In this document: piece by piece, positions 12,625 through 24,844 of the stretch
Position numbering within the stretch: the first letter of the stretch is position 1
How the letters are laid out: every line of letters starts with the position of its first letter
The notes under the pieces: generated by a model
What the model was told of the DNA's origin: nothing
What the model saw: the letters and a program-made list of their open reading frames with translations, nothing else
The model's database searches: none
Assembly: GCA_027619975.1 (NCBI GenBank)
Contig: JAQCGX010000035.1
Span: forward strand, 1 to 33,408
Reading direction: 5' to 3'
DNA from: Nitrospinota bacterium
GTDB lineage: Bacteria; Nitrospinota; Nitrospinia; Nitrospinales; VA-1
Length of the DNA stretch: 33,408 nt
Made by a program: the position numbers and the translations under genes

Positions 12625-12672
12625 TGGAGGTTCGGCGAAAAAGTTCGAACCCCCGACCTCTTGAATGCCATT
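12625..12672 (-). pseudogene. Decayed 3' half of tRNA-Ala (left attachment site)
   Basis: Read on the minus strand it carries the end of an anticodon loop with GGC, then TCAAGAGGTC, GGGGGTTCGAAC in the place of the T arm, and CCTCCA at the acceptor end. The T stem no longer pairs properly (GGGGG opposite TTTTT) and no 5' half is present: the sequence departs from the tRNA right after the 18-bp core. This is what remains of a tRNA 3' end displaced by integration. Confidence 0.65.
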
Positions 12673-12833: not shown

Positions 12834-12853
12834 TTGGCTACAGTTTGGCTACA
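12834..12853 (+). repeat. Paired 9-bp motif TTGGCTACA, 11 bp apart (left copy)
   Basis: TTGGCTACA at 12834-12842 and 12845-12853, on the same face of the helix. A single inverted copy, TGTAGCCAA, lies at 12772-12780. The same pair recurs at 17316-17335 and 24701-24720. Within the left island end this could be an arm-type integrase site. Confidence 0.6.
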
Positions 12854-13045: not shown

Positions 13046-14572
13046 TCATAATAGAGGCTGAATTGTATAACCCAGACTTTTATAACCCACCAAACGCTTT
13101 TCGTTCATTCGTTCCAGCATGGGAACCAGGTGGTCTACGTAATCGTATATTTGCACTTCCGTTTTGTTATGGTGCGTGCGATGGAGACGTCCTGAATATT
13201 GAGCCAATGTTCCCTTCCATGAAACTGGCATAGCAAGAAATAAAGTGTCAAGCCGTGCATCATCGAAGCCTTCCCCAATATAACTCCCTGTGGCAATCAA
13301 TATACGCTCTTCGTCGTCGCTGATATTGCCAAGTTTTTCCATTACAGTTTTGCGCTCCTTTGAACTCATGCCACCTTGTAGCACTATGATATTTTTTACA
13401 AATGCCCTCAGGTGTTTAGCAAAAAAAGCCACATGTTCCTTGCGTTCCGTTAGAATGACCGGCGAACGTTTAGCTTCAAGTGCATGTAGTACATCATCCA
13501 AGATAAGTTGATTGCGTGCTTCATCACTGGTTAGCTCAGCGTAAACCGTTTGAATGGGAGGTCGCTCATATTGCTCAGTAATCGCAGTTGAGATACAGAA
13601 TTTTGTATAACGAGGAATAACATAATGATCGAAAGGCCGTTTTTCCGCCTGCAATTTTGCATCTACATGATAGCGAATCGGTCCGCACTGCATAAAAATA
13701 ATAGGATGCTGACCATCTTTGCGATTGGGTGTTGCTGTCAGGCCCAGAACATATTTGGCTTTGCATTGTCGGGCTACTGCCTCGAAACTTACGGCTGAAA
13801 GGTGGTGGCATTCATCAACGATCAACTGTCCATAATCTGCTACACAATCATCTACCTCGCCCTTCCGCACTAGACTTTGAAGAAGCGCTACGTCGATCCG
13901 ACCTGAAGGCTTACGTTTGCCTCCACCGATTTTCCCTATAGTAATACTTTCTAAACTCAGAAACGCTTGTAATTGTGCTATCCACTGATCCATTAGTTGT
14001 TTGCGGTGAACCAGAATCAGGGTGTTTCGTCTGCGTTTGGCTATTATGTGCGCTGCCAGCACTGTTTTTCCAAAACCAGTAGCAGCAGAAAGAACCCCTG
14101 TATCATATTTGAGCAAGGCTTTTACAGCGGACTTCTGCTCTTTGCTCAGAGTGCCAAGGAATTTGGTGCGAATTGGTTTACCAATATTCCGCTCATCAAT
14201 AAGATCAACGGTTATTTTCAGACCACTCAATAACTCTAACAGCTCATCGAGGCACCCTCTCGGCAATCCGATGTGATTGGGAAAATTCTCGGCGCAAGCA
14301 ATGATACGTGGCTTATCAAAAGTTGATAACCTCATGGCTTGCGCCCTGTAAAACTCCGGGTTTTGGAAAGCAGCGATACGGATGAGTTTGTTGATCAGTT
14401 TTGGTGGCAACTCCTCTTTGGAAATATAAAGTTGGTTTCCCTGAATAACGGTGACAGAAGCAGGTAATGGTTCTGTAATAACAGCTGGTTTCTGTTTACG
14501 CGAAGGTGATAATTTCCATGGTTCTTCTGCGTCTTCATCATCCAAAGACATCCGGACTCCGGTAATACCCAC
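13046..14572 (-). CDS. TOTE-type superfamily II helicase (3' part of a split primase-helicase gene)
   Basis: An XPB/SSL2-like DNA helicase module. Residues 60-115 carry the family's lead-in (AAFQNPEFYRAQAMRLSTF, NHIGLPRGCLDEL). Helicase motifs follow: Walker A ATGFGKT (164-170), DECHH (253-257), GLTATPNRKDG, and motifs V-VI in IATGSYIGEGFDDARLD and QYSGRLHRTH. The C-terminus is the normal family end. It starts with GTG 14572, which overlaps the primase frame by 35 bases. In relatives known to me, primase and helicase are one polypeptide, and the first residues here (GITGVR...DEDAEEPW) continue exactly where the primase frame goes wrong. I therefore read both as one gene broken by a +1 shift; separate translation from the GTG is the alternative. 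Confidence 0.85.
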   Translation of the reverse strand: MGITGVRMSLDDEDAEEPWKLSPSRKQKPAVITEPLPASVTVIQGNQLYISKEELPPKLINKLIRIAAFQNPEFYRAQAMRLSTFDKPRIIACAENFPNHIGLPRGCLDELLELLSGLKITVDLIDERNIGKPIRTKFLGTLSKEQKSAVKALLKYDTGVLSAATGFGKTVLAAHIIAKRRRNTLILVHRKQLMDQWIAQLQAFLSLESITIGKIGGGKRKPSGRIDVALLQSLVRKGEVDDCVADYGQLIVDECHHLSAVSFEAVARQCKAKYVLGLTATPNRKDGQHPIIFMQCGPIRYHVDAKLQAEKRPFDHYVIPRYTKFCISTAITEQYERPPIQTVYAELTSDEARNQLILDDVLHALEAKRSPVILTERKEHVAFFAKHLRAFVKNIIVLQGGMSSKERKTVMEKLGNISDDEERILIATGSYIGEGFDDARLDTLFLAMPVSWKGTLAQYSGRLHRTHHNKTEVQIYDYVDHLVPMLERMNEKRLVGYKSLGYTIQPLL

Positions 14573-15476
14573 GGTTTATTGCCTCGCAGACGATATTTGA
14601 AACCTCTTCAGGAGCCATGCGTCTGACAGAAGCGAGAAATCTCCATTGATCTGCATAAGGTTCAAATTGTTCATTCAGAAAAACACTGTTATTTCCCTGG
14701 CGAGGATGGTGTTGTAGCGGTAATGCAATCAAATTGCCAAACCCTCCAGATGGCATGGTGTCCTGATTGGGAAAAAAACGATCATAAGATGCAAAGCCTA
14801 AGTCGGGGTAGTTCTCCATCGTTTCTGTAAGAAGATAAGAGCCAAGTTTTCTTGCATCGGATGCAGGAATAGGTTGACTGTAAAAAATCCATACATGTGC
14901 TCCGTTTCCAGAACGCGAGCGTTCAACATAAGCGGGTATTTTCTTTTCTCTACAAGTTTCAAGAAATGCGGAAACATCTTTCTTCCAGTGTTCTTTGTCA
15001 AAGTCTGCGGCAAGAAACCAACAGGCTTCATCTTGTAACAAAGGATAAACGCCTATGGTGAAATCTTGCTCTCTAGGATTGTCTGGGTTACAGCCCATAA
15101 GGTGATTACGTATGACTTCATCGGTGACCGGAAGGAAGGCCTGGTGCTTGCATTCGCTACACTTGACTTTTGGCTTGTCACAAACACCGTGCACCCATTC
15201 ATTACCGCAGGCCAAACTGTATCCCGAACGACCAGTCTTCCGGTTATCCCAACGTAGAGGGTAAACATCTTCCCGGCCACGAAAGAGACTGCGAAAAATG
15301 GCAATTTTTTCAGACGGGGAAAGCGGTTTTGACTTGTCAGTTTTCGTCGAGGGAAGCGTTACATGATTTTCCTCAAGGTTCTTTAGACGTGCCAGCAGTT
15401 GTGCGCGTTCTTCATCAAGAATATGAAGGCGCTTTTGAATCTGGGTAATTTCACTTTTATTTCGATTCCAATCCAT
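14538..15476 (-). CDS. TOTE-type archaeo-eukaryotic primase (5' part of a split primase-helicase gene)
   Basis: An N-terminal coiled coil (about residues 8-40) leads into a domain with a Cys cluster (Cys90, 99, 106, 109; GVCDKPKVKCSECK) and an archaeo-eukaryotic primase (AEP) core: the metal-binding DFD (Asp158, Asp160 in LAADFD), the SGNGAHVW motif (His194) and GFGNLIALPLQ. This matches the AEP domain named for TOTE conflict systems, which is normally followed by a helicase in the same chain. The reading frame is normal to EAINRG (residue 303) and then gives nine foreign residues before the stop at 14538; dropping one base near 14567-14570 joins it to the helicase as an 809-residue protein. 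It lies 60 bases downstream of AbiEii on the same strand, possibly in one transcript. No clear ribosome site is seen. Confidence 0.85.
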   Translation of the reverse strand: MDWNRNKSEITQIQKRLHILDEERAQLLARLKNLEENHVTLPSTKTDKSKPLSPSEKIAIFRSLFRGREDVYPLRWDNRKTGRSGYSLACGNEWVHGVCDKPKVKCSECKHQAFLPVTDEVIRNHLMGCNPDNPREQDFTIGVYPLLQDEACWFLAADFDKEHWKKDVSAFLETCREKKIPAYVERSRSGNGAHVWIFYSQPIPASDARKLGSYLLTETMENYPDLGFASYDRFFPNQDTMPSGGFGNLIALPLQHHPRQGNNSVFLNEQFEPYADQWRFLASVRRMAPEEVSNIVCEAINRGYYRSPDVFG

Positions 15477-15536
15477 TACACTGTGTAAAAACCAAGATGT
15501 TTTGCAACATACAACGATTATTTATGCCTGATTTTG

Positions 15537-16460
15537 CTAATCAGAAAGCGCTTCTTTTAATTCATCAATTTGTTCCGCATGCTTGTCGAGGTTACCCTTG
15601 CTCAGTTTTTGGATATTCATAAGCTTCCATTTAACGGCTGGCATACTGGGCAATTCCTCAATTGGAAATAAATTCCATTCGGGCTCGCCTTTTTTGAAAC
15701 TCAAGAGGAACCTTTTATCATCATCAGTCAAATGCCTATGAATTTCTTGAACGAGTTGCTTTCTTGTGGATTCATAATCATCGTAGCTGAATGACGAAAA
15801 TATCATGCCGGAAAATTGTTTTTCGAACACTTCCTCTTGATCCAAAAAGTTTGGCCGGATCATCTCGTGAATAGGCCGATTATGACTCAATAAAGATACC
15901 AGAAATCCTAGCCGTATCTCTTCCGTGAATCCTTCATTCTTGAAAAGATGATAAACATCAAATAAATCTCGTGGATGTTGTCGATCAAGTGCGGCACAAA
16001 TTTTTCCCCCAAATAACTCTGCATGCGACACAATATTTATAGAAGCAAACTTTCCAAATTCATTTTGAACAGCATCGGTTAGTTGCATCAAGCGTGGAGA
16101 ATGAATATGGCCGCGCATCGTGGTGTTTACTTCAACTTTGATTAATGTTCCCTTTAATTGACAGAAAAGTTTGGCTTCATGCCCATCAGATTGAGGATTG
16201 ATCCTTACTGTTATCCCTGGAAGAGTATTTTCCAAGCTACCCTTTATCCTGCCAAGCGCTTTAAATATGTTCTCCAAGGCTGTATTCCGATTATCAAAAG
16301 GCAAGTAGGTGAGATCAATGTCCACCGACAATCTCGGCATATTGCGGACAAACAGGTTAATGGCTGTTCCTCCCTTGAGAGCAAATATTTCCTCTTTTGC
16401 CACATGGGGAAGAACAAGAAGCAATAGGTCAACCTGTTCACGGTAAATTGGTGAAATCAT
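15537..16460 (-). CDS. abiEii: AbiEii-family nucleotidyltransferase toxin
   Basis: Toxin of a type IV toxin-antitoxin and abortive-infection system; family members transfer nucleotides to tRNA or other targets. Nucleotidyltransferase motifs are complete: GGTAIN (residues 30-35) and the metal-binding SVDIDL (Asp47, Asp49), then the family region HAELFGGKICAALDRQHPRDLFDVYHL. I start it at ATG 16460, which overlaps the antitoxin stop as ATGA, the standard arrangement; the frame is open further upstream (to 16706) only because it shadows the antitoxin gene. From 16460 it is 307 aa, normal for the family. Transcription comes from the antitoxin promoter. Confidence 0.92.
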   Translation of the reverse strand: MISPIYREQVDLLLLVLPHVAKEEIFALKGGTAINLFVRNMPRLSVDIDLTYLPFDNRNTALENIFKALGRIKGSLENTLPGITVRINPQSDGHEAKLFCQLKGTLIKVEVNTTMRGHIHSPRLMQLTDAVQNEFGKFASINIVSHAELFGGKICAALDRQHPRDLFDVYHLFKNEGFTEEIRLGFLVSLLSHNRPIHEMIRPNFLDQEEVFEKQFSGMIFSSFSYDDYESTRKQLVQEIHRHLTDDDKRFLLSFKKGEPEWNLFPIEELPSMPAVKWKLMNIQKLSKGNLDKHAEQIDELKEALSD

Positions 16461-17224
16461 GAGTTCGCCAGTTCCTTTGGTATGCTTATGTGATATTTGG
16501 AAATATATACGCCATTCTCCACTATAGCGCGATCTCCTTTCCCAAGATTTAACTTCGAGACATTCAGGAATTGCATCCATTGGTGACCTGTTTTCTCGGC
16601 CATGTAAAGGAAAAGTCGTTTCACCTTTATTGAAGAACATTTTTCCAATAATTCTTGCAGCTTCTTGGGCCGCAAATTTGTCAGTCCTTCCATAACCTGA
16701 TAGCACTCTACTAAATCTAATTCACGCGGTGCCAATTGCAGGCACTCAAGCATGGCACGTTCCGGTGAGGATATTTTGATACTGAAAGTTTTTTCTTCAT
16801 AATCCGTTAGCCCCAATCCCTCCGGCAGTACAGATGTTTTTATGTGCTTAACAGGCTGTTGCCAATCATGATTTCTAAACCAGGATGGTAAAGTTGTTCT
16901 GGGTGGAGAAAGTAAAAATATTCGTTCCTTGCCAAGGCGTATGTAGTGGGCCATTCCCTGCATGGATAGAGCTGTCAACGCGCCAACATGTACCAGTATA
17001 CTTGCCTGCATTTGTAATGCGTACAGGCCACCTTGCCAGCTTACATTATCGCCCGTTTTTTTGTATGCGCCCCTTGCCAGGCTTTTGATCCACTGGCTTT
17101 CAACGTATTTTTTCTGGAGCTGTCGGGATATGCCTAAACTTTCCAGCCAGGAGGTCATAGCTACCGTTCCCTGCGGCCACTTTTGCAAGAGTTTCTGTAT
17201 TTTTATCTCATTTTGTATACCCAT
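16457..17224 (-). CDS. abiEi: AbiEi-family antitoxin and autorepressor
   Basis: A 255-residue protein with an N-terminal winged-helix part (about 1-60, with the LARGAYKKTGD wing) and the AbiEi C-terminal domain (ILVHVGALTALSMQGMAHYI, then SPERAMLECL and LVECYQVMEGL). In known systems AbiEi represses its own operon and neutralises AbiEii. It is first in the operon; its stop codon overlaps the AbiEii start by four bases, coupling their translation. A near-consensus promoter lies just upstream. It is complete, so the pair is probably functional. Confidence 0.9.
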   Translation of the reverse strand: MGIQNEIKIQKLLQKWPQGTVAMTSWLESLGISRQLQKKYVESQWIKSLARGAYKKTGDNVSWQGGLYALQMQASILVHVGALTALSMQGMAHYIRLGKERIFLLSPPRTTLPSWFRNHDWQQPVKHIKTSVLPEGLGLTDYEEKTFSIKISSPERAMLECLQLAPRELDLVECYQVMEGLTNLRPKKLQELLEKCSSIKVKRLFLYMAEKTGHQWMQFLNVSKLNLGKGDRAIVENGVYISKYHISIPKELANS

Positions 17225-17230
17225 AGTTTA

Positions 17231-17259
17231 CTTATATTGCCATTTTTAATGAAAATCAA
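17231..17259 (-). promoter_or_regulatory. Promoter of the abiE operon
   Basis: On the minus strand TTGATT (17259-17254), 17-base spacer, TATAAG (17236-17231), ending just 6 bases before the abiEi ATG (17224). The expected transcription start falls on or next to the start codon, so the message is very short-leadered or leaderless. Confidence 0.6.
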
Positions 17260-17315
17260 GTTATATTCTCGGCCATGTCGTATTATTCTGGTTTGAGTGC
17301 CAGAAAAGTTTTGCA

Positions 17316-17335
17316 TTGGCTACAGTTTGACTACA
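17316..17335 (+). repeat. Paired 9-bp motif TTGGCTACA/TTGACTACA, 11 bp apart (internal copy)
   Basis: TTGGCTACA at 17316-17324 and TTGACTACA at 17327-17335, in the same spacing and orientation as the copies near both island ends. It sits between the abiE operon and the first fic gene and may mark an old junction between two islands. Confidence 0.55.
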
Positions 17336-17425
17336 GTGGGAATTTTTCCATGGGAATGGGCGCCATAACTTATGGTATTTAAAGCGCTTGAAGCGATGAC
17401 CGGAAAGTGATCACTTAACATGCCA

Positions 17426-18532
17426 TCAAGCATTCAGCCTTAGATAATAGCGCGTACTTTTTAACTCGCCGGTTTTGGTCAAAGCGCCTTTTTGAAACAA
17501 GTCCTGCAAATCCCGAGTTGCAGTCGCGCGGGACGTTTCAGAAATAGTAATATAGTTTTCTGCACTCAAACCGCCTTTAAATCCTTTCGGGCCTTCCTGG
17601 AACATTCTCAAAATTACTTTCTCCTGACGCTTATTCAAGTGGCTCCTGAATTTGCCAAAGAAGTGGGCCTTTTTAATCACAAAATCTATAAGTGTCTGTG
17701 TCTCATCCTGTGCATTGAGGATGGTCTCGGCAAAATATAAAAGCCAGTCTGTGATTTCGTTCTCTTTGTTGCTCTCTTCCAGCATGGAATAATAATTCTT
17801 TTTATTATTCTGGATGGTTTGGGAAAGGGCAATGAGTACGGGCTGACCAAGACATTCAGACAAAGCTTTTTCTGCAATGGCCCGTCCAATCCGTCCATTC
17901 CCGTCTTCAAAAGGGTGGATACAGACAAACCAAAAATGCGCTATCCCGGCACGGGTTAAAGCGGGAAGGGGTTCTTTTCCTTTAGGCCCGGTTTTTTTAA
18001 ACCAGTCCATAAACATTTTCATTTCCGCCTTCATCGCAGAAGAAGGCGGCGCTTCAAAATGCACTTTTGGTTTGTGGATGGAACCGGAAACAACCTGCAT
18101 AGGATCTGCATGAGTCCGGTAGCGTCCGATATCTTTCAGGTCTCGCCGACCGGTGGTCAACATCTCATGCCAGCTATAGAGGGTCTTGTGCGTGATAGGT
18201 TTTGCAAAATTCCGGTGGAGATCAACCATCATCTCGGCGATTCCGCGCTCCGCCGGTGGTATTTTCCGGTTATCGGTTTCCAGACCCAAGTTGCGGCGAA
18301 TGGATGACTGAATACTGTCACGGTTGAGGAATTCCCCTTCAATCTCTGAAGTTTTCAAAGCCTCGTTACAGATCAGGTCTACCGTCAAGGTCTCCTTTTC
18401 TTCATCGGAGACATGCTTATAGGCTCCAAATAAAAGGCCGGAACGGTGAAGAAACTGCTCTTCCAAACCCTTAAGAGCCTTGGTCTCATACCTAAAGTAC
18501 GGCCAGTCCTTTTGTTGCCAGTTCCATTTCAT
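17426..18532 (-). CDS. Fic-family AMP-transferase with DUF4172-type N-terminus
   Basis: Fic proteins transfer AMP from ATP to target hydroxyls. The catalytic motif is intact: HPFEDGNGRIGR with His206. The autoinhibitory motif (S/T)xxxE(G/N) is present upstream as TSEIEG (61-66), placing it in class II, inhibited in cis by Glu65. Residues about 1-75 match the DUF4172 type and the last 60 residues look like a winged helix (SETSRATATRDLQDLFQKGAL), as in DNA-linked Fic proteins. The start has a strong GGAGGAGG about 9 bases upstream, and a promoter with an operator-like dyad precedes it. Complete at 368 aa; targets unknown. Confidence 0.92.
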   Translation of the reverse strand: MKWNWQQKDWPYFRYETKALKGLEEQFLHRSGLLFGAYKHVSDEEKETLTVDLICNEALKTSEIEGEFLNRDSIQSSIRRNLGLETDNRKIPPAERGIAEMMVDLHRNFAKPITHKTLYSWHEMLTTGRRDLKDIGRYRTHADPMQVVSGSIHKPKVHFEAPPSSAMKAEMKMFMDWFKKTGPKGKEPLPALTRAGIAHFWFVCIHPFEDGNGRIGRAIAEKALSECLGQPVLIALSQTIQNNKKNYYSMLEESNKENEITDWLLYFAETILNAQDETQTLIDFVIKKAHFFGKFRSHLNKRQEKVILRMFQEGPKGFKGGLSAENYITISETSRATATRDLQDLFQKGALTKTGELKSTRYYLRLNA

Positions 18533-18556
18533 GAGCCAAATAGCCTCCTCCTATAA

Positions 18557-18591
18557 CTCAAATTATAAACTATTTTGAGGTATAAATCCAA
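18557..18591 (-). promoter_or_regulatory. Promoter and operator-like dyad of the first fic gene
   Basis: On the minus strand TTGGAT (18591-18586), 18-base spacer, TATAAT (18567-18562). The inverted repeat CTCAAA-N11-TTTGAG (18579-18557) covers the -10 box. This layout suggests repression, perhaps by the gene's own winged-helix domain. Confidence 0.55.
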
Positions 18592-18693
18592 CATTTATTG
18601 CTCATCATCACCGACGATCTTTCCCGCCAGAAAGCGAAAGCCCGCCGTGAAAAACAAAAAACGCGCTCCAAGCTGAACACTCAACCCAAGTAG
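18586..18693 (+). pseudogene. Possible gene-tail fragment
   Basis: A short open stretch with no start codon encodes a plausible basic C-terminus (DDLSRQKAKARREKQKTRSK) ending in TAG at 18691-18693. It overlaps the promoter of the fic gene on the other strand. It could be a leftover of a displaced gene or chance. Confidence 0.2.
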
Positions 18694-18723
18694 CTTCCAA
18701 CCGGCGGACCTCAATTACTTTAG

Positions 18724-18746
18724 AAAAGGGGGTTTTCCCCCTTTTT
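18724..18746. terminator. Bidirectional terminator
   Basis: AAAAGGGGG-TTTT-CCCCCTTTTT, a 9-bp perfect stem with A- and T-tracts on the two sides. It separates the fic unit from the hipBA unit and shields hipBA from read-through. Confidence 0.8.
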
Positions 18747-18795
18747 CACTCGGAATATATGGTTTATTATATATTCTTATTTTTTTATATGTTTT

Positions 18796-18835
18796 AGCAT
18801 ATTACTTTGACTCAACAATTAATATGCTTTATTAT
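18796..18835 (+). promoter_or_regulatory. hipBA promoter with auto-operator
   Basis: TTGACT (18807-18812), 17-base spacer, TATTAT (18830-18835). The inverted repeat AGCATATTA-N15-TAATATGCT (18796-18804 and 18820-18828) straddles the -35 and the spacer, the expected place for a HipB operator. Transcription should begin at about 18842, directly at the ATG of hipB (18843), with no ribosome site: a leaderless message. Confidence 0.72.
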
Positions 18836-18842
18836 ATAAGTA

Positions 18843-19220
18843 ATGGGAAAAAATATAAAATCACATATCAAACCCTCTCGTTTAGACCAATTGCCTGAAG
18901 AAATGCAACTGGAACTAAAAAAGGCTAGAACCAAGCGGGGTTGGAGCCAGGCCGAATTGGGCCGCCGAATTGGCTTACCACAGACTCATATTTCCGGCAT
19001 CGAAACAGGAAGAATTGTCCCTCGTTTTGACACCTTATTGGACCTCGCCCGTGTACTGAGTCAGGACTTATTGATGATTCCCAGAGAATTGGTGCCGGTC
19101 GTCCAAGGCATCATTCGTGATCACCGTCGTCAAGAAAAGGAATCTCATCAGGAGGAAGGAGAACGCCCTCTCTATACCCTTGATCACAACGACGATGAAG
19201 GTGATGAAAAAGAGCGCTAA
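18843..19220 (+). CDS. hipB: HipB-type helix-turn-helix antitoxin
   Basis: Antitoxin and repressor of the HipBA module. An XRE-type helix-turn-helix fills about residues 22-75 (LKKARTKRGWSQAELGRRIGLPQTHISGIETG, split by the turn at Leu-Gly); this is the family's DNA-reading unit. The C-terminal 40 residues are charged and probably disordered. Translation starts at the first base after the promoter, without a Shine-Dalgarno site. The stop codon is separated from the hipA ATG by one base, a normal coupled arrangement. Confidence 0.88.
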   Translation: MGKNIKSHIKPSRLDQLPEEMQLELKKARTKRGWSQAELGRRIGLPQTHISGIETGRIVPRFDTLLDLARVLSQDLLMIPRELVPVVQGIIRDHRRQEKESHQEEGERPLYTLDHNDDEGDEKER

Positions 19221-19221
19221 A

Positions 19222-20451
19222 ATGAAATTTGATCTAAAAAATATTAATGCTTTAGGGGTTTATCTTGGCAACCGAAGGATAGGAATTATTAACCGCCTTA
19301 CCGGTGATCGGCATATTTTCTCATTTGAGCAAGATTATATTGATGATCCCAACCGTCCCACTTTAAGTTTGTCCTTTAAAGGACAAACAGGGGATCTGGT
19401 GACATCCATACGCCCTGTGACAAAACGACTTCCGCCATTTTTCTCGAATCTCCTGCCAGAGGGTCATCTAAGAACTTATCTGGCAAAACATGCGGGCGTA
19501 AATGAAGAGCGAGAGTTTTTATTGCTTGCCGCTTTAGGCTCTGATCTTCCTGGGGCCATTACCGTCAAACCGCTGGAGATAGAATTACCAAAAAACACAG
19601 GAGAGAAGGCCGATTCTCCCGACCAAGAAAACGAACCCTTTCTAAGGTTTTCCCTGGCAGGGGTTCAATTAAAGTTTTCTGCCATCATGGAATCTTCGGG
19701 CGGTTTGACAATACCAGCCGGAGGAAGTGGCGGGTCATGGATTGTCAAGCTTCCATCAATGCGCTTCCCCTCCGTTCCCGAAAATGAATATGCCATGATG
19801 CGCCTGGCCAGATTGATCGGAATCAACGTCCCTGAAGTCCGTTTGGTTTCAGCAAAGGATATCCAAGGATTACCAAAAGATGCAAACAGCCTGGAAGGAA
19901 ACGCCCTAGGCGTTAAACGCTTTGATCGCGGACAAGAGGATTCAAAAACACATATGGAAGACTTTGCCCAGGTTTTTGGTGTATTTCCCGACGCCAAATA
20001 CAAAAACGCTAGCTATGCAAATATTGCATCTGTTCTCCAAGCTGAGGCAGGAGAGGATTCAATTAATGAATTTATACGCCGCCTGGTTTTTTCAATTATG
20101 ATCGGTAACGCAGATATGCATTTAAAAAACTGGTCCTTGCTTTACCCAGATAGCCGAGCGCCCATCCTTTCTCCTGCATATGATCTTGTTTCTACAATTC
20201 CTTACCTTCCGGATGATGGCCTTGCTTTAACCTTCGGAAGGAGTCGGAGCCTAAAGAAAATCACCAAAGATCAGGTGCGCCGTTTTGCTGACAAAGCTGG
20301 ACTTGCCATGAGCACAACCTGGGCCCTCGTAAACGAAACAGCCGCAAAGACAGTGGATAGCTGGGCTTTATTAGAGGAAAAGGATTTACTTCCAAACCCA
20401 ATCAAAAAAGCGATAGAAGAGCAAATACATTCGGTGGTTATTAATAACTAA
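19222..20451 (+). CDS. hipA: HipA-type Ser/Thr kinase toxin
   Basis: A PI3/4-kinase-like protein kinase; the known E. coli relative phosphorylates glutamyl-tRNA synthetase and causes persistence. Motifs in order: N-terminal subdomain (VYLGNRRIGIINRLTGD, LPPFFSNLLPEGHLR), SDLPGAITV, the nucleotide region SLAGVQLKFSA, WIVKLPS...NEYAMMRLA, VKRFDR, the catalytic loop GNADMHLKNW and the metal site SPAYDLVST. All catalytic residues are present, and at 409 aa it is of family length. I start at ATG 19222, one base after hipB; in-frame ATGs at 19204 and 19195 are alternatives. Two terminators follow downstream. Confidence 0.92.
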   Translation: MKFDLKNINALGVYLGNRRIGIINRLTGDRHIFSFEQDYIDDPNRPTLSLSFKGQTGDLVTSIRPVTKRLPPFFSNLLPEGHLRTYLAKHAGVNEEREFLLLAALGSDLPGAITVKPLEIELPKNTGEKADSPDQENEPFLRFSLAGVQLKFSAIMESSGGLTIPAGGSGGSWIVKLPSMRFPSVPENEYAMMRLARLIGINVPEVRLVSAKDIQGLPKDANSLEGNALGVKRFDRGQEDSKTHMEDFAQVFGVFPDAKYKNASYANIASVLQAEAGEDSINEFIRRLVFSIMIGNADMHLKNWSLLYPDSRAPILSPAYDLVSTIPYLPDDGLALTFGRSRSLKKITKDQVRRFADKAGLAMSTTWALVNETAAKTVDSWALLEEKDLLPNPIKKAIEEQIHSVVINN

Positions 20452-20567
20452 TAGCAAGCTAAATTTCTTGTAAGTCTGAAAAATCAGGGGTCATGCAGAA
20501 TATAGTCTCTCAGGCATAATTTAAATGCCTTCAACTCACCGGCCCTAAAATATTTTAGAAATTTAAT

Positions 20568-20602
20568 TAAGGCTCCACCTCTTTGTGGGGTCTTAATTTT
20601 TC
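20568..20602 (+). terminator. Terminator downstream of hipA
   Basis: AAGGCTCCAC pairs imperfectly with GTGGGGTCTT around CTCTTT and is followed by AATTTTTC. It lies 117 bases after the hipA stop. Confidence 0.55.
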
Positions 20603-20625
20603 TATTTTTCAATTGTACTGAAAAG

Positions 20626-20668
20626 AAAAATCGCCGCCCGGCAAAACACCGGGTGGCGATTTTTTTTT
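20626..20668. terminator. Strong bidirectional terminator (first of two similar copies)
   Basis: AATCGCCGCCCGG, loop CAAAACA, CCGGGTGGCGATT, flanked by A- and T-tracts, so active in both directions. A near-copy lies at 24277-24318, and each is followed by the same minus-strand gene tail. Confidence 0.85.
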
Positions 20669-20729
20669 CGAACAAATCAACTATTTTGGAAGGGTAAAAT
20701 TTTAATCCTGCCCTTTCTGCATTAATTTC

Positions 20730-20777
20730 CTACTCGGCGGCTACGGCGGCTAGAGAGTGGTTTTGTAAGTGCGATGA
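20730..20777 (-). pseudogene. Gene tail ending NHSLAAVAAE (copy 1)
   Basis: On the minus strand the last codons read LQNHSLAAVAAE and a TAG stop; an in-frame stop lies just upstream, so only about 15 codons survive. The same ending (NQSLAAVAAE) occurs at 24376-24459 with 17 more intact codons. It is convergent with hipA across the terminator at 20626-20668. The parent gene is not recognised. Confidence 0.45.
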
Positions 20778-20948
20778 TCACCACGATTGACTGGTGCAGA
20801 CTGTCCCTTCCTAATAATCATGGTAATTTGGCTTATTGCCCAATGTTTTCAACAAGGTACATTAGCACTCTGAGACAACTGGCCAACAATGTGCACATTA
20901 CCGGACTAGTATGCCCAAATTTTTATCTTTAAAAAATATTAACCATAT

Positions 20949-20966
20949 GTTATAAAAGGATATAAC
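20949..20966. promoter_or_regulatory. Palindrome upstream of the second fic gene
   Basis: GTTATA-AAAGGA-TATAAC, a 6-bp perfect inverted repeat 28 bases before the ATG at 20995. It contains -10-like TATAAA/TATAAC and may be an operator. The rest of the 20778-20948 gap shows nothing I can support. Confidence 0.4.
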
Positions 20967-20994
20967 TTATTTTAAAACGGACACAGAACCGGAC

Positions 20995-22209
20995 ATGGAA
21001 GCGGACGTAAAACAGCAAGAAGACAGAGGAGAAGCCATAGGATTGATGGAGCCTCTACTGATTTCCCAAGGCTCACGGCATCGGCCTGAATTAATGGATA
21101 TTGCCATGGATTTAGCCGCAAAATCTTCCGGGCTCCGGCGTAGCCTGTCTCCAGGTGTTTACAAAGCTCTGGCAAAATTAGTCAGGACTATGAACTGCTA
21201 TTACAGCAACCTTATCGAAGACCATAATACACATCCCATCGATATTGAACGATCGATGGAAGGTGATTATAGCGATGACACCAAAAAAAGAGACCTTCAA
21301 CTGGAAGCAAAGGCCCATATTATTTGCCAGCAATGGATTGATGAGGGCGGCCTAAAGGGGCGCGCTTATACCGTTGAAGGTTTGCTGGAAACACATCGCC
21401 GTTTTTGTGAACTGCTACCGGATGATCTTCTTTGGGTAAAAAATCAAACCACAGAGGAAAGGGTCACGGTTATTCCCGGCCAATTACGAACACGGGATGT
21501 AAAAGTCGGTGATCACCTGGCTGTCAGCGCAGGGTCTCTGCCGCGCTTCATGGAACGATTTGAGGAAGTCTATTGCGGACTAGGAAAATCAGAATCTATT
21601 CTGGCCGCAGCAGCAGCTCATCACCGTTTTGCGTGGATTCATCCCTTTATTGATGGAAATGGTCGTGTGGCACGATTGATGTCTCATGCCGCAATGCTTG
21701 AAACTTTGGACACGGGGGGCGTGTGGTCTGTTGCTCGTGGTTTAGCGCGTAGTGTAAAAAGTTACAAAGGTCATTTAAAAGAATCTGATCTGCCGCGCCG
21801 CAATGATTTAGACGGTCGCGGCAATTTGAGCGAAGAAGCTCTGGCAGAATTTACGCGGTATTTTCTGGAGGTCTGCCGTGACCAGGTTAATTTTATGGAA
21901 GGCCTGGTCCAGCCAGATCGCCTACGCACTCGAATTTTACTTTGGGCTGAAGAAGAAGTCCGCATGAAAAACTTGCCCGAAAAAGCCGGGACAGTTTTAG
22001 AGGCTCTGCTCTATAGAGGTGAACTCCCACGCGGAGAAATTCCTGAGATCATTGGTGCCGGTGACCGGCAAGCACGCAGAGTTACATCTGCTCTGCTAAA
22101 AGAAGGTGTTCTATTCTCCGAAAGTTCCCGCGCGCCATTGCATTTGGTGTTTCCTGCAAAGCTAGCCGATAGATGGATGCCCAACCTATTCCCGGAGAAA
22201 ACAGATTAG
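20995..22209 (+). CDS. Fic-family AMP-transferase (mobile proteobacterial type)
   Basis: A 404-residue Fic protein with the intact motif HPFIDGNGRVAR (His216-Arg227) and the family's conserved blocks: MNCYYSNLIEDHNTHPIDIE, KRDLQLEAKAHI, HRRFCELLPDDLLWV, SHAAMLETLDTGGVWSVARGLAR, LPRRNDLDGRGNLSEE. The inhibitory-helix glutamate is present (Ser71-xxx-Glu75) but the usual Gly/Asn after it is Asp76. A C-terminal winged-helix (about 325-400) suggests DNA-linked autoregulation. The start at 20995 lacks a good ribosome site; ATG 21046, with AGGA upstream, is a real alternative. It is convergent with the DUF6088-like gene, 38 bases away. It is unlike the first Fic protein in its N-terminal half, so the two are not a recent duplication. 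Confidence 0.9.
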   Translation: MEADVKQQEDRGEAIGLMEPLLISQGSRHRPELMDIAMDLAAKSSGLRRSLSPGVYKALAKLVRTMNCYYSNLIEDHNTHPIDIERSMEGDYSDDTKKRDLQLEAKAHIICQQWIDEGGLKGRAYTVEGLLETHRRFCELLPDDLLWVKNQTTEERVTVIPGQLRTRDVKVGDHLAVSAGSLPRFMERFEEVYCGLGKSESILAAAAAHHRFAWIHPFIDGNGRVARLMSHAAMLETLDTGGVWSVARGLARSVKSYKGHLKESDLPRRNDLDGRGNLSEEALAEFTRYFLEVCRDQVNFMEGLVQPDRLRTRILLWAEEEVRMKNLPEKAGTVLEALLYRGELPRGEIPEIIGAGDRQARRVTSALLKEGVLFSESSRAPLHLVFPAKLADRWMPNLFPEKTD

Positions 22210-22247
22210 AGTTTTTTTAGGCCATTGCTTATAAATGGAGGTCTATA

Positions 22248-22844
22248 TTACGCGGCATAGCTGGCATTAGAATTATTGAGCAATTCCTCAAAGAAATTTT
22301 TTGTTCTTACGCCTCCAAATTCGTGAGCAGCTTTTATGAGCTTTGACTTATTCATGGACAAAGCTTTTTCTGCAACATTTTTTCGAACTTCCTTCTTATC
22401 CTCTGCAAGAAATTCCAGGTTGTTCATAAGATCAACCAAAAGGAATTCCTGCGAACTTTTTTTAGGGAAACGGGGTCTTTTCAAGAAATAGTAATTACGC
22501 CCGTTAAGCTCGTGCCTTCCATCCCGTTTATGGTTATAAACCAGCTTTTCATTGTAAAGCTGGGTTGTTCCAACGCCCAGAGAGTTATAGGCATTGAGAG
22601 AAGTAACATAGAAATTATCATCCTTTAAAAAGGCGCTGACCAGTTTTTCATCTTCTGGCGGGGCATTTCCAAAAGACGTTTTCTTAGGGCAATAATAGAC
22701 GCCACCGAAAACCTTCTGGAGCACACCTTCCTTCACAAGTTGCTGTAAATGCCGATCAACGGACTTTGATTTTCTGGCAAGCTGAGCCCGCCTGTAAACC
22801 CGGCCTGGCCTGAGATGTTTTTTTAATTCTTTCAATTTAGACAC
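22248..22844 (-). CDS. DUF6088/AbiEi-like antitoxin without a toxin partner
   Basis: An N-terminal winged helix (LRPGRVYRRAQLARKSKSVDRHLQQLVKEGVLQKVFGGVYY in two halves) and a C-terminal part with NLEFLAEDKKEVRKNV match my memory of DUF6088 proteins, type IV-like antitoxins normally followed by a nucleotidyltransferase. Here the gene ends 38 bases from the convergent fic gene and no toxin follows. The frame is open to ATG 22865, but that ATG overlaps the -10 box; GTG 22844, with AAGGAG 6 bases upstream, fits both promoter and ribosome site and gives 198 aa. Orphan state suggests deletion of a partner. Confidence 0.75.
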   Translation of the reverse strand: MSKLKELKKHLRPGRVYRRAQLARKSKSVDRHLQQLVKEGVLQKVFGGVYYCPKKTSFGNAPPEDEKLVSAFLKDDNFYVTSLNAYNSLGVGTTQLYNEKLVYNHKRDGRHELNGRNYYFLKRPRFPKKSSQEFLLVDLMNNLEFLAEDKKEVRKNVAEKALSMNKSKLIKAAHEFGGVRTKNFFEELLNNSNASYAA

Positions 22845-22863
22845 AGCTTTCTCCTTGTCTAAC

Positions 22864-22892
22864 ATTATAGAGAAAAACGGAATATTTGTAAA
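22864..22892 (-). promoter_or_regulatory. Promoter of the DUF6088-like gene
   Basis: On the minus strand TTTACA (22892-22887), 17-base spacer, TATAAT (22869-22864). The expected start near 22857 falls after the ATG at 22865, which is why the GTG at 22844 is the preferred start codon. Confidence 0.7.
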
Positions 22893-23065
22893 TTTTTTAG
22901 TCTAAATTTCATGCATAAAACAATCAATAATACGATATAAATTGCCGCATTTAAGGGGGTAGGTATCCGGCCATTCCTTGCCTTTTTTCATCGGTAATAA
23001 TCCAGAAATTGACCCAGCCCTCGCAAATCGGCCATTTCCTAAATGCAAAAACCCTTAAATCATCC

Positions 23066-23094
23066 TTGCAAATTAAAAATAACACTTTTAATAT
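23066..23094 (+). promoter_or_regulatory. Promoter of the AAA ATPase gene
   Basis: TTGCAA (23066-23071), 17-base spacer, TAATAT (23089-23094). Transcription is expected to start within a base or two of the ATG at 23101, so the message would be leaderless; AAGG directly abuts the ATG and is too close to serve as a ribosome site. Confidence 0.6.
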
Positions 23095-23100
23095 ACAAGG

Positions 23101-24279
23101 ATGATAAAAAGAGCCATATATCAAAAAGTTTTGCGTGCGCTTGATCGTCAAGCCGCCGCCGTGTTAATCGGTCCCCGCCAAGTCGGCAAAACCACACTGG
23201 CTCTTGAAATTTCGACCAGCCGGGAGGCTGTCTATCTGGATCTTGAATCCCTTGAAGACCGGGAAAAACTCAAAAACCCTGCCCTGTTTCTTGGCAAGAA
23301 CGAAAATAAGCTCGTTATCCTCGATGAAATTCACCGCATGCCAGAGCTGTTTCAGGCTTTACGTGGCCTGATTGACCAAGGGCGACGCAAGGGATTGCGA
23401 ACGGGCCGCTTTTTAATTTTGGGATCAGCTTCGATTGATCTACTGCGTCAATCAGGCGAAACACTGGCTGGGCGGATCGAATATATCGACATGGAACCAC
23501 TAAACATCTTGGAAACAAGTAATGCAGATAATAATGCCGACCCGGCAAAGCTTTGGGTGCGTGGCGGGTTCCCTGATAGCTACCTTGCCACAAGTGACGA
23601 AGACAGCTATGCATACCGGCGTAACTTCATTCGTACTTATCTAAAAAGAGATGTGCCGCAATTCGGCCCGCGCATCCCTGCCGAAACGCTTGAGCGCCTA
23701 TGGATCATGCTAGCCCACAGCCAGGGGCAACTTCTAAATGCTTCTCGCTTGGCCGCAAGCCTATCAGTTACCGCACCGACTATAAGCAGTTATATCGACC
23801 TGTTAACCGACCTCTTACTGGTGCGGCGATTGCGGCCTCTTCACGCCAACACCAAAAAGCGTCTAGTCAAAGCCCCGCGCGTTTATGTGCGCGATAGCGG
23901 TATTACTCATGCCTTGCTTGGCATAGCTGATTATAATCAGCTTTCCGGTCATCCTGTCTTTGGTACAAGTTGGGAAGGTTTTGTAATAGAAAATCTGCTT
24001 TCCGTAGCGCCTGCCAGAACAGCGGCCAGTTTCTACCGCACCTCGGCGGGCGCAGAAATTGACTTGGTGCTGGACTTGCCCGGAGGAAAAAAATGGGCCA
24101 TAGAGATTAAAAGCGGTCTGGCACCCAAGCTGGGAAAGGGTTTTTACAATGCTCTTGAGGATGTAATCCCGGATCGTAGTTTTGTTGTTTATGCTGGATC
24201 AGACCGTTACCCGGTGTCGAAAGAAACAGATGCGATAAGCTTAACGGAGCTGGTGCAGAAATTGAAAGAAGTAAAATAA
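23101..24279 (+). CDS. AAA_14 ATPase with DUF4143 nuclease-like domain
   Basis: A 392-residue protein of the common AAA_14/DUF4143 family. Walker A is GPRQVGKTT (24-32), Walker B VILDEIH (Asp75, Glu76), and sensor LILGSASIDLLR follows. A winged-helix section (about 200-245) leads to DUF4143, whose C-terminal part has the PD-(D/E)XK-like pattern AGAEIDLVLDL...WAIEIKSG. The family is frequent in mobile and host-interaction contexts, but its substrate is not settled. It is complete with normal length. It follows a divergent DUF6088-like gene and is closed by a strong terminator. Confidence 0.9.
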   Translation: MIKRAIYQKVLRALDRQAAAVLIGPRQVGKTTLALEISTSREAVYLDLESLEDREKLKNPALFLGKNENKLVILDEIHRMPELFQALRGLIDQGRRKGLRTGRFLILGSASIDLLRQSGETLAGRIEYIDMEPLNILETSNADNNADPAKLWVRGGFPDSYLATSDEDSYAYRRNFIRTYLKRDVPQFGPRIPAETLERLWIMLAHSQGQLLNASRLAASLSVTAPTISSYIDLLTDLLLVRRLRPLHANTKKRLVKAPRVYVRDSGITHALLGIADYNQLSGHPVFGTSWEGFVIENLLSVAPARTAASFYRTSAGAEIDLVLDLPGGKKWAIEIKSGLAPKLGKGFYNALEDVIPDRSFVVYAGSDRYPVSKETDAISLTELVQKLKEVK

Positions 24280-24318
24280 AAATCGTCGCGCGGTGAAACA
24301 CCGGGCGGCGATTTTTTT
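24277..24318. terminator. Strong bidirectional terminator (second similar copy)
   Basis: AATCGTCGCGCGGTG, loop AAA, CACCGGGCGGCGATT with one mismatch, flanked by A- and T-tracts. It immediately follows the AAA ATPase stop and closely resembles 20626-20668. Confidence 0.85.
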
Positions 24319-24334
24319 TGCCGTTAATGAACAA

Positions 24335-24354
24335 CCCCGCCCAAGCGGGCGGGG
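24335..24354 (-). terminator. GC-rich hairpin after the gene tail
   Basis: CCCCGCCC-AAGC-GGGCGGGG, a perfect 8-bp stem. On the minus strand it follows the tail gene at 24376 and runs into TTGTTCATT, a weak T-tract. Confidence 0.5.
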
Positions 24355-24375
24355 TATCAGTCAATATTTTTTCTC

Positions 24376-24459
24376 CTACTCCGCGGCTACGGCGGCTAGA
24401 GATTGGTTTGCCTGCGCAGCACTCTCAAGCGCGTAGTCTGCTGCTTTCTGCGCCTTGCT
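24376..24459 (-). pseudogene. Gene tail ending NQSLAAVAAE (copy 2), cut by a MITE
   Basis: On the minus strand the frame reads KAQKAADYALESAAQA, then NQSLAAVAAE and TAG. It is an amphipathic Ala-rich helix; the frame runs directly into the inverted-repeat element at 24461-24622, which removes the rest of the gene. Parent gene unknown. Confidence 0.5.
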
Positions 24460-24460
24460 G

Positions 24461-24622
24461 GCTATAACCGCGCATTTAATTTGGGAAAAAGTTGCAGTTA
24501 GTTTGGGATGAAAAGCGTGGGGGGGATTTTACCGGGCACGAGAATTGCTTCAGGAAGAATTTAGCTAGTAAATTTCTCGGATTAAATGCGATTTTTTCCC
24601 GAACTAAATGAGCGGTTATAGC
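24461..24622. mobile_element. MITE-like element with 30-bp inverted ends
   Basis: The left end 24461-24490 (starting GCTATAACCGC) and the right end 24593-24622 are inverted repeats matching at 27 of 30 positions. The element is 162 bp and non-coding. The ends can also be read as TA-flanked (TA|TAACCGC...GCGGTTA|TA), as in mariner/IS630-type insertions. It separates the gene tail at 24376-24459 from the integrase stub at 24623. It is unrelated in sequence to the 221-bp element. Confidence 0.68.
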
Positions 24623-24700
24623 TATGCTCACTTAAGTCCTGAGGTCAAACGCCGGGCCATTGATGCGCTTTCTGGCTTCAACAAAAGGGAAGCAAAATGA
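24623..24700 (+). pseudogene. C-terminal stub of a tyrosine recombinase (integrase)
   Basis: The frame reads YAHLSPEVKRRAIDALSGF, then NKREAK and TGA (24698-24700). YAHLSPE is the signature around the catalytic tyrosine of phage-type integrases, so the nucleophile and about 25 terminal residues survive. Everything upstream is lost where the 162-bp element begins. The stop codon is followed directly by the TTGGCTACA pair and, 72 bases on, by tRNA-Ala, the normal place of an island integrase. Confidence 0.75.
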
Positions 24701-24720
24701 TTGGCTACAATTTGGCTACA
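24701..24720 (+). repeat. Paired 9-bp motif TTGGCTACA, 11 bp apart (right copy)
   Basis: TTGGCTACA at 24701-24709 and 24712-24720, starting one base after the integrase stop codon and about 50 bases from the tRNA 3' end. It is a candidate arm-type site of the lost integrase. Confidence 0.6.
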
Positions 24721-24760: not shown

Positions 24761-24771
24761 ATAAAATAAAG

Positions 24772-24844
24772 TGGAGCTGACCGGGATCGAACCGGTGACC
24801 TCTTGAATGCCATTCAAGCGCGCTCCCAGCTGCGCCACAGCCCC
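24772..24844 (-). tRNA. tRNA-Ala, anticodon GGC
   Basis: On the minus strand it folds as a complete cloverleaf: acceptor GGGGCTG/CAGCTCC, D arm GCGC...GCGC, anticodon stem CTTGA/TCAAG with loop ATGGCAT (GGC), T arm CCGGTTCGATCCCGG and discriminator A. The CCA end is not encoded. Its 3' part is the right attachment site of the island and was probably supplied by the incoming element. Confidence 0.95.

Follow-up and report, generated by a model that had tools for sequence, protein, structure and literature searches.

A phage-end mini-element between truncated ardC and integrase genes at tRNA-Ala(GGC) in a Nitrospinota bacterium

The window analysed here is a stretch of 33,408 nt from a Nitrospinota bacterium. 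It contains an island at tRNA-Ala(GGC) whose tyrosine integrase is reduced to a C-terminal tail directly beside a short inverted repeat. What is this repeat, and how was the body of the integrase lost? The initial annotation proposed a 162-bp inverted-repeat element, whose insertion was followed or accompanied by a deletion. The features of the locus are listed in Table 1.

Table 1. Features of the tRNA-Ala(GGC) locus in the window
Feature	Position	Strand	Basis and remarks
Distal att core, in tRNA 3' remnant	12655..12672		Repeats D6/D8; outer limit of the island
3' tail of ardC-type antirestriction gene	24376..24462	-	From homologues; 28 codons + stop, cut at the element
Phage-end mini-element (type A)	24463..24620		158 bp, ORF-free; limits from element-free relatives
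End a, phage right end	24463..24512	+	TATAAC + R1 (24469-24490) + R2 (24491-24512)
End b, second, inverted end	24571..24620	-	TATAAC + R1-like (24614-24593) + R2-like (24592-24571)
Tyrosine integrase C-terminus	24623..24700	+	YAHLSPEVKRRAIDALSGFNKREAK*; 25 codons + stop, catalytic Tyr first
tRNA-Ala(GGC)	24771..24844	-	ARAGORN; 3' end toward the element, 150 bp away
att core within tRNA	24797..24814		GACCTCTTGAATGCCATT; exact 18-bp repeat of 12655-12672

Boundaries of the element and its truncated neighbours

The arms of the inverted repeat (24461-24500 and 24583-24622) show 85% complementarity across 40 nt. The terminal pairing of 33/40 compares with a maximum of 24 among 100,000 composition shuffles, and the inverted repeat is not explicable by chance. 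The limits were set at 24463 and 24620 by comparison with element-free relatives. The ardC relatives read TTGCTGGC followed directly by GGC across the left junction, and the alignment with an intact integrase locus (G004:C191) picks up again at 24621. The outermost GC on both sides is native ardC or integrase sequence, which by chance lengthens the palindrome. Thus, the element itself stands as first annotated, and its length is corrected from 162 to 158 bp. Its termini are TATAAC...GTTATA, and each end carries two abutting 22-bp repeats. End b was defined by its sequence and by alignment with three copies (C67, G001:C22 and G001:C68). According to the sequence comparison, its R2-like site and end b as a whole are weaker than end a, and end b is decayed in the G001 copies.

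The truncated gene on the left, annotated before as an unrelated tail, was identified as the end of ardC. In the homologues G001:C17 (ArdcN + MPTase-PolyVal) and G025:C191, the intact ardC is continuous across the start point of the element. On the right, comparison with an intact relative, which had been suggested as a check, showed that the surviving part of the integrase indeed begins at the catalytic Tyr at the edge of the element. The relative, G004:C191 of the same genus, has an intact 344-aa Phage_integrase protein at the same tRNA-Ala(GGC) and no element; its DNA is 88% identical to the tail, and its sequence across the break point (slash) is ...TTTQR/YAHLSPEVK.... Both genes have lost their N-terminal part, which amounts to at least 319 codons in the integrase and about 284 in ardC. 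A second ardC 3' remnant, in which the terminator of 24273-24409 recurs, is present at 20621-20667 and 20728-20763; therefore the island has two ardC tails.

A Mu-like parent lineage and other copies

The end motif was scanned as an exact pattern across 84,980 species genomes, and the matches were confined to Nitrospinaceae MAG contigs, a host range given by this single scan. A scan of IMG/VR gave one virus, IMGVR_UViG_3300022697_000367 (38,835 bp), with 25 bp between the motif terminus and the right edge of the contig. The array of end a terminates this virus and Nitrospinaceae prophages as well. The virus encodes a MuA-type DDE transposase (Mu-transpos_C, rve, phrog_310), a MuB-like ATPase (AAA_22/TniB, phrog_296), regulatory and early proteins (S24 repressor, Mor, Mu Gam, GemA), structural proteins (terminase, Mu portal, Mu F, head protease, major head protein) and a D12 methyltransferase. 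It is a complete Mu-like transposable phage. The predicted 22-bp transposase sites are L1, inverted L2 and L3 at the left, and abutting R1-R2 at the right. Prophages of the same MuA clade are found in G001 (several), G052 and G046, and the MuA proteins of named phages are at most about 30% identical to those of this clade. On these results, the Mu-like phages of these marine nitrite-oxidising bacteria (Nitrospinaceae) seem to form a clade not described before.

The prophage in the closed genome G046 is flanked on either side by TTCTT. In G052, the two ends of one prophage (C119/C70) both carry CCAAC, and the prophage ends in G001 (C43/C69) both carry GTCAC; these two pairings are based on the common 5-mer, which may agree by chance, and G046 is unambiguous. 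Thus, the parent prophages have TATA... termini and a 5-bp target duplication, as Mu does. The parent further resembles Mu and the other transposable phages (saltoviruses) in its MuA/MuB/Mor/Gam/GemA/Mu portal gene set, its size of 37-41 kb, its three left sites and its abutting 22-bp right sites. It differs from them in its termini, TATA(A/G)N in the lineage of the window instead of the terminal TG...CA, and in a strong bias toward tRNA 3' flanks.

About 135 bp of the element is collinear with the DNA of phage right ends, and a second right-type end, in inverted orientation, completes it. It is short and gene-less, and its inverted ends are in common with an autonomous parent. Since these ends are shared with a complete Mu-like phage, the element is best described as a natural "two-right-end mini-Mu", probably derived from the phage and not from an IS. 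A synthetic transposon of the mini-Mu type, with two R-ends of 50 bp, is transposed in vivo and in vitro, and MuA alone suffices (PMC3003695). The element likewise has two inverted right ends with two abutting transposase sites each and no gene, but it is natural and 158 bp long, with a degenerate end b, and its mobility is presumptive. It also resembles the TIMEs and bacterial MITEs derived from Tn3 (PMC4133298), which are short and gene-less, have inverted ends and several copies and are presumably mobilised in trans, whereas its parent is a transposable phage and not a Tn3-family transposon or an IS. Thus, MITE-like miniatures can apparently arise from transposable phages, and not from IS elements only.

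The size, the inverted ends, the several copies and the TA in both termini would also fit an ordinary IS-derived MITE of a TA-target type (Tc1/IS630 or similar) with no relation to phages. This origin is very improbable, as the ends match those of a complete Mu-like phage and of the three prophages in which a 5-bp duplication is seen, the abutting 22-bp sites are Mu-type, and the exact-pattern scan gave only Nitrospinaceae contigs. The 5-bp duplications of the parent rule out a MITE with the TA duplication of IS630/Tc1. Two other candidates were rejected: an attC/integron site, because the ends are incompatible with the GTTRRRY core, and a Tn7/CAST end, as the TGT terminus is absent and no TnsA/TniQ/Cas genes were seen in the phage.

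A search for copies elsewhere in the genome, also suggested with the first reading, located two further places, C67:1593-1742 (89%) and C10:3525-3657 (88%). Genomes of the same genus carry relatives too, one sister genome in at least two places, and the copies lie at unrelated sites with collinear interiors. The C67 copy (about 156 bp) has the architecture of the window element, unrelated flanks and the flanking 5-mers TGAAT/GCGAG, and thus no target duplication. A second kind of mini-element, in which a right end is fused directly to a left end, is present in G002 (103025-103179), together with a truncated mini-element copy. No clean insertion was caught, as the 5-bp duplication is absent from the mini-elements examined (window, C67 and the intact one in G002). 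The assembly of the window contains no MuA homologue or matching transposase. Movement of the mini-elements in trans by phage MuA is therefore only inferred.

The target duplication and the transposase are missing, and the interior consists mostly of phage right-end sequence that is collinear with the right ends of prophages. In view of this, the element might be a static scar, left when a prophage right end decayed to a stump, and never mobile as a unit. We consider this unlikely. The window and C67 copies agree in architecture and nearly in length at different sites with unrelated flanks, TATAAC is present at both ends of the window element, and the second kind in G002 is independent. A miniature that moved as a unit is the preferred reading.

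Several other loci were recorded. The C67 copy (G000:C67, L021) has a tyrosine-recombinase fragment on one side and part of an IS3-type transposase on the other. In G002, a 25.5-kb segment of metabolic genes (MarC, TonB/ExbBD, Mrp antiporter, Usp; C22:103025-128564, L017/L018) is edged by an inverted pair of mini-elements; a tRNA-Lys 3' fragment precedes the one, and a tRNA-Ala follows the other. No integrase or transposase was found within this segment. It was rejected as a transposon, because its ends are separate mini-elements (right+left ends), and the 5-mers beside the two copies are inconsistent with a replicative inversion. At G001:C22:45628-45636 (L026), a phage left end faces a phage right end with 7 bp between, possibly as remnants of tandem prophages.

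Association of the insertions with tRNA genes

Mu is the textbook random transposer. Insertions of the present family were found by similarity to the phage ends, blind to tRNAs, and number 22 by our own tally of one event per contig end, in which the events are possibly not all independent. Nine of them have an intact tRNA gene nearby, whose 3' end lies 40-150 bp away, and the insertion is invariably on the 3' side. The tRNAs are Ala-GGC (G000, G002, G018), Ala-CGC (G052), Thr-CGT and Arg-TCT (G001), Lys-CTT (G046), Pro-TGG (G014) and Pro-CGG (G018). Three additional insertions follow tRNA 3' fragments (G002, G008, G049). With 27-44 tRNA genes per genome, 0.04 insertions are expected within 150 bp (Poisson tail about 5e-19), and the enrichment is about 200-fold. 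All three duplication-verified prophages belong to the tRNA group, at 70-125 bp from the tRNAs. No integrase was seen at these sites in G046 and G001. An integrase gene as the target in G052 is not claimed, as only an integrase-like frame of about 40 codons is present there. Several insertions lie away from tRNAs (G001:C1, C18 and C68; G000:C67; G018:C93), and a related phage (L117) is located in an IS91-like gene. Thus, tRNA flanks are strongly preferred, though not exclusively used.

We tentatively suggest that this lineage has acquired targeted transposition, in which its target-capture machinery, the MuB-like ATPase or another early protein, steers the insertion to 40-150 bp downstream of tRNA genes. 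Somewhat more doubtfully, the association may reflect survival and not targeting, if the phages insert anywhere and persist only next to tRNAs, in island DNA that is dispensable. Mu shows almost no site discrimination, with the consensus CYSRG; it avoids mature tRNA sequence, and its activity is higher in tRNA leaders and trailers (PMC7350765). The crowding of tRNA 3' ends with islands and the several insertions away from tRNAs are also in line with survival. Against it, the enrichment of about 200-fold within 150 bp far exceeds what the share of dispensable DNA could yield, and the three verified prophages lie close to tRNAs, two of them with no integrase seen. The Mu-like phage Ab30 also has a landmark-linked insertion bias, with >300-fold hotspots fixed 55-61 bp from palindromic BIMEs (PMC5977238), whereas the landmark here lies 40-150 bp off and is a tRNA gene or the terminator of one.

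This tRNA-flank preference of the parent phages is the wider result of the analysis. The literature search, which covered few subscription journals, yielded no account of Mu-like phages that direct their insertion to tRNAs. If targeting is true, a Mu-family phage would share the use of tRNA genes as safe harbours with integrase phages and some Tn7-like elements, and the integrases of resident islands would be broken by its gene-less miniatures. If a natural relative of Mu strongly prefers one landmark, target choice in the Mu family becomes open to comparative tests.

The junction and the island

The 5-mers that flank the window element, CTGGC on the ardC side and GCTAT on the integrase side, are unlike at every position. 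Therefore, there was no simple insertion of the element into a pre-existing ardC-int fusion. With a family that duplicates 5 bp, these unlike 5-mers and the intact relatives lend support to insertion plus deletion as first proposed, and the element is probably the joint of a deletion that linked ardC to the integrase gene. None of the genomes shows the divergent ardC...int arrangement that would have preceded the deletion.

Probably, a miniature of the phage lineage was inserted into the island at tRNA-Ala(GGC), and a rearrangement then deleted parts of both genes and left the element as the joint. The entry site would most likely reflect the preference of the phage family for the immediate 3' flank of tRNA genes, a position also taken by the 3' end of an island integrase. 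With right-type ends on both sides, in inverted orientation, the element could be handled as a mini-Mu by MuA supplied in trans. The rearrangement may have been replicative transposition into nearby DNA, resulting in an adjacent deletion, or recombination between two copies, which would yield the same product. Mu-family elements are known to produce deletions linked to an element copy (PMC3562280). An anonymous repeat thus becomes interpretable as a phage-derived miniature left where an island integrase was deleted.

The att-like repeats of the island (12655-12672 and 24797-24814) are still present. From these repeats and the loss of the integrase, it is plausible that the island was frozen and no longer excises by itself, and it may be mobilised in trans. 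Three copies of the TTGGCTACAGTTTGGCTACA-type repeat (12834-12853, 17316-17335 and 24701-24720) are likely arm-type sites of the integrase. The middle copy is inside the island, which suggests two islands, nested or in tandem. The cargo at 13046-24279 is defence-like and includes a TOTE-type primase and helicase, an AbiEi/AbiEii pair, two Fic proteins, HipB/HipA, an AbiEi-like protein and AAA_14/DUF4143.
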